A stretch of DNA of 64,000 nucleotides, taken from positions 1,054,001-1,118,000 of the forward strand of contig NZ_CP042909.1 of the NCBI RefSeq assembly GCF_012317585.1. The letters run 5' to 3'. Position 1 is the stretch's first letter, and the number at the start of each line of letters is the position of its first letter. This document shows, one piece after another, positions 45,064 through 49,777 of this stretch. The notes under the pieces were generated by a model. That model was not told the DNA's origin and did no database searches. It was given only the letters and a program-made list of their open reading frames with translations. Origin of the DNA: Thermosulfurimonas marina. Its GTDB lineage: Bacteria; Desulfobacterota; Thermodesulfobacteria; Thermodesulfobacteriales; Thermodesulfobacteriaceae. The position numbers and the translations under genes were made by a program.

Positions 45064-47400
45064 ATGAGTCCTCAAGGCAAAGTCCGGGAGACCGTGCTCG
45101 AGCTCATTGGAAATACCCCTCTGGTCAAGCTTCGCCGCCTCCGGGTAAAACCTCGGGTAGAGATCTGGGTCAAGCTCGAGAGTTTCAATCCCGGAGGTTC
45201 GGTCAAGGACCGCATCGCCCTTTCTATGATCGAAGATGCCGAGGCCCGGGGGCTTCTTGGTCCGGAAAAGATTGTGGCCGAGGCCTCAAGCGGCAACACC
45301 GGAATCGGTCTGGCCATGGTCTGTGCGGTCAAGGGCTACCGGTGTCTTATCGCCATGCCGGAGTCGGCCTCCATTGAGCGCCGCAAGATCATGCAGGCCT
45401 ACGGGGCGGAGATCCTCCTTACCCCTGCGGAAAAAGGGACCGACGGGGCCATCGAGGCCATCTATGAACTGGTGCGCCAGCATCCTGAGCAATATTACAA
45501 TCCCGATCAATTCAATAATCCGGCCAACTGGCAGGCCCATTACCGCACCACTGCTCCGGAGATCTGGCGGGACACGGGGGGGCGTCTGACCCATGTGGTC
45601 TCGGCCATGGGCACTACCGGGACCCTCATGGGCCTGGCCCGGTACTTTCGGGAAAAGGCCCCCCAGGTGAAGGTCATCGGGGTGGAGCCCGTTCCCGGGC
45701 ACAAGATTCAGGGCCTGAAAAATATGAAGGAATCCTATCCGCCGGGGATCTACGATCGTAAGCTCCCGCACGCCATCGTGAATGTAGATGATGAGGAGGC
45801 CTACGAGCTGGCCCGGCGCTTGGCCCGAGAGGAGGGCCTCTTTGTGGGGATGAGTTCCGGAGCGGCCCTGGCCGGGGCTTTTAAGGTGGCCCGGGAGATA
45901 GAAGAGGGTCTGGTGGTGGTCATCTTCCCCGATGGGGGCGAACGCTATCTTTCTACCCCTCTTTGGGTCTTTCCAGAACCTCCCAAACGGGAGGACTTCC
46001 GGCTTACCAATACCCTTACCGGGCGCAAGGAGGTCTTTGAGCCCTTGGAGCCGGGAAAGGTGGGGATCTATACCTGTGGCCCTACCCTCAATCGCCGGCC
46101 GCATCTGGGGCTTTACCGGCGGATGCTCACCGCGGACCTTTTGCGGCGCTGGCTTGAGGCCCGAGGTCTTTCCGTAACTCACGTGGTCAATCTCACCGAC
46201 TTTGACGACAAGACCCTGGCGGCGGCCGAGGCCGCGGGTCGTCCCCTGAAGGAACTTACCGAAGAGATTGCCCGGGAATTCTTTGCGGACCTGGAGTTTC
46301 TCCGGATCAAGCCTGCCACCCACTATCCCCGGGTGAGCGAACACTTAGAGGATATGCTGGTCCTGGCTCGCCGACTCTTGGAGAAGGGGTATGCCTACGA
46401 AAAATATTCTTCCGTCTATTTTGATGTCTCCAAGCTTGCGGATTATGGACGGCTTTCCGGGGTGGATCCGGCGCGCCTGCGTCCGGGGGTCACCGTAGAT
46501 CTTGACGAATACGAAAAGGACGCCCCGGCGGACTTTACGCTTTTCAAACGCGTGACCATTCAGGAGCTCAAACAGGGCTATTTTTTGGACACCGAATGGG
46601 GCAAGGTGCGCCCCGGCTGGCATATCCAGTGTGCGGCCATCGCCATGCGCTATCTGGGAGAGACCTTTGACCTGCATACCAGCGGCACGGATCTTCTTTT
46701 TCCCCACCACGAAAACGAAAGGGCCCTGGCCCGGGCGGCCACCGGAAAGGAACTCTGCCGCTACTGGCTCCATTCGGCCCTGGTGATGGTGGAGGGCAAG
46801 AAGATGTCCGTTTCCGCGGGAAACGAAGTCACTCTGGAGGAACTGCGACAGGCGGGATATTCTGGCCGAGAGATCCGCTTTTTCCTTTTGCGTACCCATT
46901 ACCGTAAGCCTTTAAATTTCACCTGGAAGGCCCTTTCCGAGGCCCGCAGGGCCTTGCAGAACCTGGATCTCTTTTGTGGTTTATTGGCCGCGGCCCCGGA
47001 GGGTCCGGAGGCCCCCGAGCTCCGCAAGGCCCTTTCCGAGCTTTCCGAGGGCTTTGAGGCCGCCATGAACGACGATCTCAACACCCCGCAAGTGGTAGCC
47101 GGTCTCTTTCGCTTTTCCCGGAGATGGTATCCGGCGGTGGCCGGCCCTGGGGTGCCGAAGGATCTGCGAGAGGAAGCCCTGGCCGCGCTAGAGCGCCTCA
47201 ACCAGGTGCTTGCGGTGCTGGTCTTTCCGGAGGAGGCCCGGAGCGAAGAGGTGCGCAGGAGGCTGGCCGCCCGGGAGGAAGCCCGGCGGAGGGGGGATTA
47301 CGCCTTGGCCGACCGTATTCGAGAGGAGTTGCGGGCCGAGGGGTATCTGGTGGTGGACACCCCAGCCGGCCCCCGCGCCTTCCACCCCCCAGAAAAATAG
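45064..47400 (+). CDS. Fused cysteine synthase / cysteinyl-tRNA synthetase
   Basis: A single 778-codon frame. Residues 1-~310 are a complete PLP-dependent cysteine synthase (CysK/CysM): NTPLVKL, the PLP lysine in NPGGSVKDRIAL, the substrate loop ASSGNTGIGLA and the closing GERYLSTPLW. Residues ~318-775 are cysteinyl-tRNA synthetase: Zn ligands starting with Cys338 in TCGPT, WHIQC, DLLFPHHENE, and the C-terminal DALR/anticodon region. Two class I signatures are altered: HIGH reads HLGL (347-350) and KMSKS reads KMSVS (580-584). A fusion could channel new cysteine to tRNA. The stop TAG lies in a palindromic repeat. The fused architecture is seen directly; activity of the synthetase half is uncertain. 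Confidence 0.9.
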   Translation: MSPQGKVRETVLELIGNTPLVKLRRLRVKPRVEIWVKLESFNPGGSVKDRIALSMIEDAEARGLLGPEKIVAEASSGNTGIGLAMVCAVKGYRCLIAMPESASIERRKIMQAYGAEILLTPAEKGTDGAIEAIYELVRQHPEQYYNPDQFNNPANWQAHYRTTAPEIWRDTGGRLTHVVSAMGTTGTLMGLARYFREKAPQVKVIGVEPVPGHKIQGLKNMKESYPPGIYDRKLPHAIVNVDDEEAYELARRLAREEGLFVGMSSGAALAGAFKVAREIEEGLVVVIFPDGGERYLSTPLWVFPEPPKREDFRLTNTLTGRKEVFEPLEPGKVGIYTCGPTLNRRPHLGLYRRMLTADLLRRWLEARGLSVTHVVNLTDFDDKTLAAAEAAGRPLKELTEEIAREFFADLEFLRIKPATHYPRVSEHLEDMLVLARRLLEKGYAYEKYSSVYFDVSKLADYGRLSGVDPARLRPGVTVDLDEYEKDAPADFTLFKRVTIQELKQGYFLDTEWGKVRPGWHIQCAAIAMRYLGETFDLHTSGTDLLFPHHENERALARAATGKELCRYWLHSALVMVEGKKMSVSAGNEVTLEELRQAGYSGREIRFFLLRTHYRKPLNFTWKALSEARRALQNLDLFCGLLAAAPEGPEAPELRKALSELSEGFEAAMNDDLNTPQVVAGLFRFSRRWYPAVAGPGVPKDLREEALAALERLNQVLAVLVFPEEARSEEVRRRLAAREEARRRGDYALADRIREELRAEGYLVVDTPAGPRAFHPPEK

Positions 47401-47417
47401 GATCCGATCCTATTTTT
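47393..47417. repeat. REP-like palindrome, copy 1
   Basis: Stem arms AAAAATAGGATC and GATCCTATTTTT around a single C. The left arm supplies the last Lys codon and TAG stop of the cysteine synthase/CysRS gene. The T-run at the right may also make it act as a terminator. Confidence 0.9.
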
Positions 47418-47424
47418 TGCGACC

Positions 47425-48084
47425 ATGACTTCCGGCAGCGCTTATTATTCCACGGTGCTTCGCGAGATCTACGAAAGGCTCTACCAGCACTTTGGCCCTC
47501 AGGGGTGGTGGCCGGCGGAATCCCCCTTTGAGGTTTGTGTGGGAGCCATCCTTACCCAGAATACCAACTGGCGCAATGTGGAGCGGGCCCTCAAAAACCT
47601 CAAAGAGCGGGGGTTGCTTGAGCCTCACAGGTTAGCCAAGCTTTCGGAGACGGAATTGGCGAATTTGATTCGTCCTGCAGGTTATTTTCGGGTCAAGGCT
47701 CGAAGGCTCAAGGCCTTTCTGGGCTGGCTTCTTGAACGCTGTGAGGGCGATCTTTCGGCCCTGGCGGAGATAGACACTGAGACCTTGCGCCGCGAGTTTT
47801 TGGAAATTCCAGGCATCGGACCGGAGACCGCAGATAGCATCCTCCTTTACGCTCTGGAGCGCCCGGTCTTTGTGGTGGACGCCTATACCAAACGCATCCT
47901 TGTCCGCCACGGATTAGTGACCGAGGAGGCCGATTATTCAGAGATTCAGGGAGTTTTTATGGAAAATCTTCCCCCGGAGGTCCCCCTTTACAACGAATAT
48001 CATGCCCTTTTCGTGGCCTGCGGGAAACACTACTGTCTCCCCCGCCGCCCTCGCTGCCCCTCCTGCCCCCTCCGAGAAAAATAG
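47425..48084 (+). CDS. HhH-GPD DNA glycosylase, endonuclease III-like (MagIII-type)
   Basis: A 219-residue base-excision glycosylase. The helix-hairpin-helix reads EIPGIGPETADSILLY (about 130-145) and the catalytic aspartate lies in VFVVDAYTKRIL. Four C-terminal cysteines (C-x6-C-x2-C-x5-C pattern, ending CPSCPL) hold the [4Fe-4S] cluster. True endonuclease III has a lysine in the hairpin (GVGRKTA) for AP-lyase action; here that position is Glu, as in monofunctional alkyl-base glycosylases of the MagIII group. Its TAG stop is inside palindrome copy 2. Confidence 0.85.
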   Translation: MTSGSAYYSTVLREIYERLYQHFGPQGWWPAESPFEVCVGAILTQNTNWRNVERALKNLKERGLLEPHRLAKLSETELANLIRPAGYFRVKARRLKAFLGWLLERCEGDLSALAEIDTETLRREFLEIPGIGPETADSILLYALERPVFVVDAYTKRILVRHGLVTEEADYSEIQGVFMENLPPEVPLYNEYHALFVACGKHYCLPRRPRCPSCPLREK

Positions 48085-48101
48085 GATCCGATCCTATTTT
48101 T
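48077..48101. repeat. REP-like palindrome, copy 2 (shared by two gene ends)
   Basis: Identical to copy 1. Both arms are used as stop codons: TAG 48082-48084 ends the rightward glycosylase gene and TAG on the minus strand (48096-48094) ends the leftward RAYT gene. It sits in the convergent junction where a bidirectional terminator is expected. Confidence 0.9.
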
Positions 48102-48735
48102 TGCGAGGACGCCCTCGACGTTTTTCTTTGAACCCAAGGCGCTCCAAAAATTCTGGCGGTCCGAGCGGGCGGTTTTTCCGACTGTTCTGACGCAAGAAAG
48201 CCAGGAGTTCAGGGGATTCCGGTTGGTTGCGCCATTCTCGGTAGTATTCTAGGGCTTCCCGGGTAAAAGGAGGCTCCTCCCAAAAATAGGATCCGATCCT
48301 ATTTTTGTTGGCCGAGGAATAGGGGTAGTCCTCGGGGGAAGCGGCTAATCCTGCCCTTACGGGATTGCGTTCGATATACCGCATGACTTTCCAGAGATAA
48401 GTTTCCCCATCTACTATGGAAGCGTGGTATTTGGCTCGCCACAATTGTCCCTCAATGGCGTATTTTTGGTTGTAATATTGGGTGTAAGAGACCAGGAGCC
48501 CTTGCATAAACTTAACCAATTGATCAGAAGACGTTGGAACAACTAATAAATGAAAATGGTTGGGCATCAAGCAAAAACACCACAGTTTTATTTCTCTTTT
48601 TCGTTTCAAGTTAGCTAAAATTTCCAAAAAGGTGCGATAATCTTCCTCTTCATGAAAACAGGTTTGCCCATGATTGGTCCTAGAGACTACATGATGGGGA
48701 TATCCGGGGGCGATGATCCTGGGCCGGCTGGGCAT
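48094..48735 (-). CDS. REP-associated tyrosine transposase (RAYT)
   Basis: A 213-residue IS200-like Y1 transposase of the RAYT group. Diagnostic features are the N-terminal RPRIIAPGYPHHVVSRTNHG, the metal-binding HxH in CLMPNHFHLLV, the tyrosine-bearing helix (MQGLLVSYTQYYNQKY), and the GQLWRAKYHASIV and YIERNPVRAGL blocks. RAYTs bind and cleave REP palindromes and are thought to spread them. Palindrome copies lie upstream of its ribosome-binding site, inside its own coding region, and at its stop. The internal copy is read in frame as NKNRIGSYF, so the protein stays intact. It ends in a basic RRGRPRKK tail. Confidence 0.9.
   Translation of the reverse strand: MPSRPRIIAPGYPHHVVSRTNHGQTCFHEEEDYRTFLEILANLKRKREIKLWCFCLMPNHFHLLVVPTSSDQLVKFMQGLLVSYTQYYNQKYAIEGQLWRAKYHASIVDGETYLWKVMRYIERNPVRAGLAASPEDYPYSSANKNRIGSYFWEEPPFTREALEYYREWRNQPESPELLAFLRQNSRKNRPLGPPEFLERLGFKEKRRGRPRKK
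48282..48306. repeat. REP-like palindrome, copy 3 (inside the RAYT coding region)
   Basis: Identical 25-base element embedded in the transposase gene. On the coding strand it is read AAA-AAT-AGG-ATC, a frame without stops, so it adds NKNRIGSYF between YPYSSA and WEEPP without breaking the protein. Confidence 0.9.
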
Positions 48736-48746
48736 ACCCCCTCCTT

Positions 48747-48770
48747 AAAATAGGATCTGATCCTATTTTT
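48747..48770. repeat. REP-like palindrome, copy 4 (RAYT leader)
   Basis: Same arms with central T and one A fewer at the left edge. It lies immediately before the GGAGGGGG ribosome-binding site of the RAYT gene, where a hairpin or bound transposase could affect its expression. Confidence 0.85.
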
Positions 48771-48842
48771 AGGGAAGGCAGGGGAATTTGTCAAGAATTT
48801 TTGGAGGGGTTTTTCGAGGAATGTGAAGAGTAGCAAAGAGAC

Positions 48843-48879
48843 AAAAATGGGATCGGATCCTATTTTTGATCCTATTTTT
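48843..48879. repeat. REP-like palindrome, copy 5 plus tandem half-copy
   Basis: AAAAATGGGATC-G-GATCCTATTTTT followed directly by a second GATCCTATTTTT half. The left arm has one A-to-G change. On the minus strand the extra half gives CAA-AAA-TAG, the final Gln-Lys codons and stop of the EamA transporter gene. Confidence 0.88.
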
Positions 48880-49777
48880 GGGTGAGGGCCAGGAGGAAGA
48901 CGCCTCCCACCATGACCGCGGAGGCCAAAAACCTTATTCCGAAGTGTCTCTCGCGCAGGAAGGCCCCGCCCAAAAAGACTCCAAAGAGGATGCTGGTACG
49001 CTTTACCGCGATCATATAAGCCGCCGGGGCCAGACTTATGGCCTGCATGTGGCAGACCACCATGAGGGCCTGCGAGAGTCCCAGGAGGAAAAAGCCTAAA
49101 GGTCTTCGGCGGAAAAGAGGCAGGATCTTCTGCCCCGAGAGTATTCGCAGAAGGAGGGGCACCACCAGACCCAGGAGGATAAAGTAAAAGGAGGCAAACC
49201 AAAGGGGAGAAGAAAGAAGGATAGCCCTCTTCCCCAAAGCTGAGGTCACCGCATAAAGGGCGGCCACGGCCAGCATCAAAAGGGAGCCCCTTTCGCGCAA
49301 AAGCCCCTTTAGGGGAGCCAGAGGACCCTCCGAAAGATGGGGAAGATGCAAGAGGTAACTGCCCAGGACCACGAAAAGGATTCCGGCCACTCCCAGGGCC
49401 GAGGGTCTTTCCCCCAGGAGGAGAAAGCCCGTGCCGATGAGAAAGGCCGGGGTGAAGGCCAGAAGAGGTAGGGTGAGGGAAAGGGGGGAGACCCTGATAG
49501 CCTCCATGTAAAGAAAAAGGGCGGAGATCTCCAAAGGGAGAAGGGCAGCCAGGGTGAGGAGGAAGGCCGGCTTTTTGAGGACTTCCAGGGTGAAATAGAG
49601 ATAGGGTCCGGGCTCAAATTTGAGGAAAATTACCCCCAGGAGAAAGGGCACCGGGGCCAAGGTGCGGACCAGGGCCATGGCCGCCATACCTTCGGTGGCA
49701 AAGTATTTCTTATTAAAAAAATCCCCCAAGGCCACAAAAAAGGCTGCCCCCAAGGCCAGGATCAACCAGAGGCCCAT
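48872..49777 (-). CDS. EamA/DMT-family membrane transporter
   Basis: A 301-residue integral membrane protein with ten hydrophobic helices in two EamA repeats (about 3-140 and 165-298). Typical features are the N-terminal ALGAAFFVALGDFFNKKYF, an internal LLLGERPSALGVAGILFVVLGSYLL and the matching second-half GAFLRERHFGIRFLASAVMVGGVFLLAL. Members export amino acids, nucleotide precursors or other metabolites; the substrate here is unknown. The stop codon comes from the tandem half of palindrome copy 5. Confidence 0.88.
   Translation of the reverse strand: MGLWLILALGAAFFVALGDFFNKKYFATEGMAAMALVRTLAPVPFLLGVIFLKFEPGPYLYFTLEVLKKPAFLLTLAALLPLEISALFLYMEAIRVSPLSLTLPLLAFTPAFLIGTGFLLLGERPSALGVAGILFVVLGSYLLHLPHLSEGPLAPLKGLLRERGSLLMLAVAALYAVTSALGKRAILLSSPLWFASFYFILLGLVVPLLLRILSGQKILPLFRRRPLGFFLLGLSQALMVVCHMQAISLAPAAYMIAVKRTSILFGVFLGGAFLRERHFGIRFLASAVMVGGVFLLALTQK

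Follow-up and report, generated by a model that had tools for sequence, protein, structure and literature searches.

In Pseudomonas fluorescens SBW25, REPINs occur as doublets of 71 and 110 bp, and their spacers show less conservation than the REPs themselves (Bertels and Rainey 2011, PMC3116915). The GTAG REPs lie close to gene 3′ ends, with some copies within ORFs, and their frequent donation of a TAG stop to flanking ORFs has already been published (Di Nocera et al. 2013, PMC3733652). The action of TnpA_REP depends on both the GTAG and the hairpin, to degrees that differ (PMC8266576). The settling of REPs on gene stops in Thermosulfurimonas marina is an extension of something known from other bacteria. 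The palindromes of this genome probably form a REPIN/RAYT population, small and readable, with the RAYT, a single domesticated transposase, as the mover and the survivors lying at gene junctions on native stops.

The window, i.e., the whole stretch of 64,000 nucleotides that was analysed, contains five copies of the 25-base palindrome AAAAATAGGATCNGATCCTATTTTT between 47393 and 48867, together with the following features:

45064..47400, plus strand: fused cysteine synthase/cysteinyl-tRNA synthetase (CysK-CysS), with its stop in palindrome 1
47393..47417, no strand: REP palindrome 1, perfect, central C; supplies the Lys-TAG of CysK-CysS and lies 8 bp 5′ of the glycosylase ATG
47425..48084, plus strand: HhH-GPD DNA glycosylase, with its stop in palindrome 2
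48077..48101, no strand: REP palindrome 2, perfect, central C; Lys-TAG for both the glycosylase (plus) and the RAYT (minus)
48094..48735, minus strand: RAYT, REP-associated Y1 (HUH) transposase, 213 aa (Y1_Tnp, 1.2e-15; REP_Tyr_transpos, 5e-22)
48282..48306, no strand: REP palindrome 3, perfect, central C; in the RAYT frame, codons 144–152, KNRIGSYFW
48746..48770, no strand: REP palindrome 4, one mismatch, central T; 10–11 bp 5′ of the RAYT ATG; half of the 97-bp doublet
48746..48867, no strand: REPIN-like doublet, 122 bp, centres 97 bp apart
48843..48867, no strand: REP palindrome 5, one mismatch, one arm TGGGATC; other half of the 97-bp doublet
48868..48879, minus strand: extra half copy CAAAAATAGGATC; supplies the Lys-TAG of EamA
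48872..49777, minus strand: EamA-family transporter, with its stop in the half copy 48868–48879

None of 100 dinucleotide shuffles produced such palindromes (chance expectation for the five, 0.00), and the five repeats around the RAYT gene described in the initial annotation are thus confirmed. Three of them are identical and perfect; the last two, described there as copies of the same palindrome, each carry one mismatch. Likewise, all four genes said to take their ends from the palindrome do end in Lys-TAG; CysK-CysS, the glycosylase, and the RAYT take it from full copies, but EamA uses the extra half copy. The service of one copy to two convergent genes holds for palindrome 2, which ends both the glycosylase and the RAYT. 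On either strand, the consensus is open in two frames and meets a stop in the third, and Lys-TAG is available in one of the three; the copy within the RAYT gene, earlier placed in the one frame without stops, occupies one of two open frames. The CysK-CysS fusion is a single 778-aa protein, and open frames of approximately 778–779 aa exist at that place in genus relatives.

The RAYT protein carries a Y1 HUH domain with a RAYT-type signature. Its match to the NCBIfam model REP_Tyr_transpos (E = 5e-22) reaches 78.4 bits, just below the cut-off of 80; residues H60, H62, and Y120 are invariant in an alignment of three clade members, and PDB 4er8 gives a sequence match with E = 0.013. The gene is the only Y1 transposase gene in the genome and is flanked on both sides by cognate repeats. 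Close relatives (58–79% identity) are encoded only by genomes with cognate palindromes, namely G003, G031 (two), G033, G038, and G039. Just 5′ of the start codon, every RAYT gene of this clade carries a palindrome, whether complete or degenerate, and most also have one at or near the stop. No close RAYT was found in the repeat-bearing genomes G004 and G035–G037, several of which are incomplete. The genes nth and eamA converge directly on each other in G001, G004, and G008, where no RAYT separates them. The REP_Tyr_transpos match, below its cut-off, and the cognate repeats around orthologous RAYTs together bear out the proposed REP/RAYT system. Other Y1 genes, in L086 and L088–L091 (G024, G016, G027, G014, and G020), are flanked by different long palindromes outside the gene, several of the CTACCACTTCCGAAGTGGTAG type.

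The genome sequence (1,763,258 bp, one contig) contains 14 copies with at most three mismatches, in six places, and a reversed-pattern control over the same sequence gives 0 matches. The 11-mer AAAATRGGATC is confined, genome-wide, to these 14 copies or to half copies beside them. Within the genus, G003 contains 27 copies and G004 contains one, and no palindrome was found in three further same-genus genomes scanned. In a second family of this order, G038 shares the palindrome of the window genome, and a variant repeat with GGATCCGTTCC occurs in G031, G033, G036, G037, and G039. Single matches in contigs of Clostridia, Flavobacteriaceae, Mucilaginibacter, and Acidimicrobiia were taken as chance, approximately one match being expected by the authors' estimate. 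Repeats at the end of queA or 39 bp past it, in L120 (G003) and L157 (G035), belong to two families and may reflect parallel insertion.

The repeats pair at a preferred spacing, their principal unit being a doublet spaced at 97 bp, a REPIN. Exactly 97 bp separates 14 pairs from six genomes; three further doublets are spaced at 98 bp, one at 96 bp, and one at 100 bp, giving seven genomes in all, and the remaining distances range from 54 to 142. The 122-nt doublet of the window folds into one long hairpin with a 24-bp stem (−39.8 kcal/mol at 37 °C and −8.6 at 74 °C). REP orientation within a doublet is hardly defined, since the repeat is a perfect palindrome save for the central base. Spacer length is held in the 97-bp doublets while spacer sequence varies. 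Two G036 doublets on different contigs have 97% identical spacers, and hence a doublet can move as a whole unit; the G033 doublet spacer is 76–79% identical to them. Compared pairwise, the 72-bp spacers of the window genome are unrelated or weakly related at best (best z 3.2) and give no sign of recent movement, and the z values in a search for a conserved spacer fold, between +0.9 and −3.5, show no consistent trend. The spacer of the flgE–rnr doublet (G000:C1:1620929-1621050, L014) holds a strong terminator-like hairpin, and terminator-like hairpins also occur 3′ of flgE in repeat-free relatives; this spacer may be native DNA.

A fixed 97-bp spacing could also reflect looping between operators of a transcription factor, with the palindromes marking a regulon; the perfect dyad and the location of some copies upstream of starts are in keeping with this. 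Such a regulon is very improbable, however, given that many copies lie at gene 3′ ends, that the genes are functionally unrelated, that one copy lies within a reading frame, and that G036 carries entire doublets, spacer included, at two sites.

A role as bidirectional intrinsic terminators kept at gene ends accords with the T-tract that follows the hairpin on both strands and with the copy situated between two convergent genes. Nevertheless, many copies are located in divergent gaps, 5′ of starts, and the RNA hairpin of a single palindrome weakens from −8.5 kcal/mol at 37 °C to −3.1 at 60 °C and approximately 0 at 74 °C, compared with −8 for ordinary terminator-like hairpins near flgE. Growth temperature was inferred from the genus, whose species are named thermophilic; 74 °C is the growth optimum of T. 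dismutans. At that temperature, the single palindrome does not form the stable G+C-rich hairpin before a U-tract that defines an intrinsic terminator, so that the terminator role suggested in the initial annotation is doubtful and this explanation of the repeats is unlikely.

A codon model trained on named genes was used to call the genes beside the repeats, and Pfam served to check several of them; a 708-aa ORF of L108 without a Pfam match was set aside as spurious. In the window genome, G003, and G038, the stop lies inside or touches the repeat at 24 of 27 adjacent gene 3′ ends, and 17 of the 27 take Lys-TAG from the repeat, which agrees with the expectation that copies sit at gene ends in that frame. 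Stop donation by the repeats is real. In the window genome, six ends are Lys-TAG (a DUF255/thioredoxin-like protein, DnaJ, CysK-CysS, the glycosylase, the RAYT, and EamA) and the seventh, FlgE, has TAA at the repeat edge, with no exceptions. G003 has ten Lys-TAG ends (YceG/MltG, a phosphate-binding-like protein, Lon, a glycosyltransferase, a prenyltransferase-like protein, a periplasmic binding protein, UvrC, the RAYT, EamA, and a PHP protein), two edge stops (a Na/Ca exchanger and QueA), and one repeat 45 bp past its gene. In G038, one end is Lys-TAG (RsmB), two have TGA in the centre of the repeat, two have edge stops, and at the last two the repeats lie 9 and 45 bp from the gene end. The G003 glycosylase and pseudouridine synthase read through the repeat, and both were left out of the 27. 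Several repeats of the second family, which is less compact, adjoin gene ends, but fewer of them coincide with stops.

Two further observations concern G003. The glycosylase (L118:925-1593) passes the palindrome in an open frame (QEMGSDPIF) and meets TGA directly after it. At L120:439-1521, an HD-domain protein may begin (MGSDPIL) at an ATG that the TGGGATC form of the palindrome created.

Because repeat-free relatives exist at several sites, the landing point of the repeat relative to the native stop is directly visible. Counted in codons, the native stop lies at offset 0 for dnaJ, cysKS, L112, and L115, at 0 or −2 for nth (−5 in one pair), at 0 or +2 for eamA, at 0 or −2 for PHP, and at +1 for mltG; in cysKS, the relatives have a native TAG at the same codon as the stop in palindrome 1. 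The native junctions in these relatives are tight or overlapping. Orthologues that lack the repeat thus end at the identical codon or roughly two codons away; the repeats are placed on native stops and have not trimmed the genes, contrary to the proposal that insertion replaces natural gene ends. That proposal had named natural stops just beside the repeats in relatives as an observation that would count against it, and the result comes close to this.

In the window, the median gap between tandem genes is 0 and that between convergent genes is −4; since the median gaps are zero or negative, viable insertions at such junctions must hit a stop, and a special low-cost spreading strategy, as had been envisaged, is not needed. 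A selective sieve imposed by genome compactness probably accounts for much of the stop pattern and leaves room for a modest target preference at stops. An alternative is that target choice rather than the sieve places the repeats, with the RAYT integrating at stop-like TAG/TAA or at palindromic CTAG/TTAA, sequences that gene ends often contain. In several genes, the new stop falls exactly on the native codon instead of being spread over the last codons, and in the edge case FlgE the native TAA is kept and the repeat begins right there. A per-base null derived from the window gaps gives P ~6e-10 for the 14 independent elements, out of 25, that lie on a stop. However, several of the long gaps contain hidden genes, including the RAYT, which makes this null too generous; with gaps >250 bp dropped, the expected share at non-divergent junctions is ~0.6, and 14 of 15 elements on stops give P ~0.006, both values being the authors' arithmetic from the window gap data under a null model that is rough and based on 64 kb. 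Target choice is a possible explanation, although the odds are somewhat against it.

Under the REPIN/RAYT reading, the RAYT is probably the mover of the palindromes, to judge from the sequences. The RAYT encoded at 48094–48735 would mobilise them as single REPs and as 122-bp doublets via single-stranded hairpins, its own gene being bracketed by a palindrome and containing one. Surviving insertions would be those at gene junctions. Where tandem or convergent genes abut or overlap, an insertion would hit the native stop, and a stop would then be restored at nearly the same codon by the TAG that each arm contains. The selective sieve, perhaps assisted by a preference for stop-like TAG/TAA as targets, would yield the present pattern, which suggests that stop donation by REPs may stem largely from genome compactness.

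All seven RAYT genes of the clade contain, at nucleotide 430 or 431 (codon 144), an internal 25-mer in which 10–12 of the 12 dyad pairs are formed, compared with 8–9 pairs at the next best dyad site of each gene. The Y1 gene of G041, 36% identical, has no palindrome at that position, and 22 other Y1 genes examined all lack one like it within the matched region. The internal palindrome is read as KN(R/G)IxSxF in six of the seven. In the G038 RAYT it is shifted by one base and read as QKWDLIPF, i.e., in the frame that would meet TAG; since both arms are altered there (TGG and CCA), the dyad is kept and the stop is avoided. At codon 144, the DNA symmetry is thus conserved where the peptide is not. 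It is tentatively proposed, at somewhat less than even odds, that this palindrome may be a functional DNA or RNA site for self-regulation or self-recognition, held by selection at codon 144 across two families whatever the frame. If so, the transposase gene would bear its own substrate within its coding sequence. The conserved palindrome provides a concrete lead on RAYT self-recognition or self-regulation. An AlphaFold model of the RAYT from three sequences has a mean pLDDT of 38.9, too low to place the palindrome-encoded peptide. The REP/RAYT literature searched gave no account of a REP within the reading frame of a RAYT, which is not proof of absence.

Compared with the known systems, T. marina and its relatives share with the REPINs and RAYTs of SBW25 (PMC3116915) the small palindromes arranged as doublets at a preferred spacing, the lower conservation of spacers than of repeats, and the one cognate RAYT flanked by them. 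There are also differences: the spacing is 97 bp rather than 71 or 110 bp, 14–27 copies are present rather than hundreds, the palindromes are perfect and hence have hardly any defined head–tail orientation, and one copy lies inside the RAYT frame. In common with the GTAG REPs and REPtrons (PMC3733652), the repeats lie mostly at gene 3′ ends, supply TAG stops for flanking ORFs, and include some intra-ORF copies. Unlike them, they are without the unpaired GTAG tag of typical RAYT substrates, which counts against the REPIN/RAYT reading: in place of an unpaired terminal GTAG, the arms AAAAATAG or AAAAATGG lie within the paired stem, and the few G003 copies that read AAAGTAG or AAGTAG still hold it inside the stem. 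Because the TAG lies within the paired arm, either strand can supply the stop; stop use is, in addition, compared here with the native stops of repeat-free relatives. As in the TnpA_REP systems and REPtrons of E. coli, S. maltophilia, and Marinomonas (PMC8266576), a sequence-related Y1 HUH protein adjoins its repeats; recognition of GTAG plus hairpin is shown in those systems. Finally, palindromes are tolerated in reading frames, similar to the Rickettsia palindromic elements (cited in PMC3733652), but here it is the transposase gene that carries the in-frame copy, at a single conserved codon.
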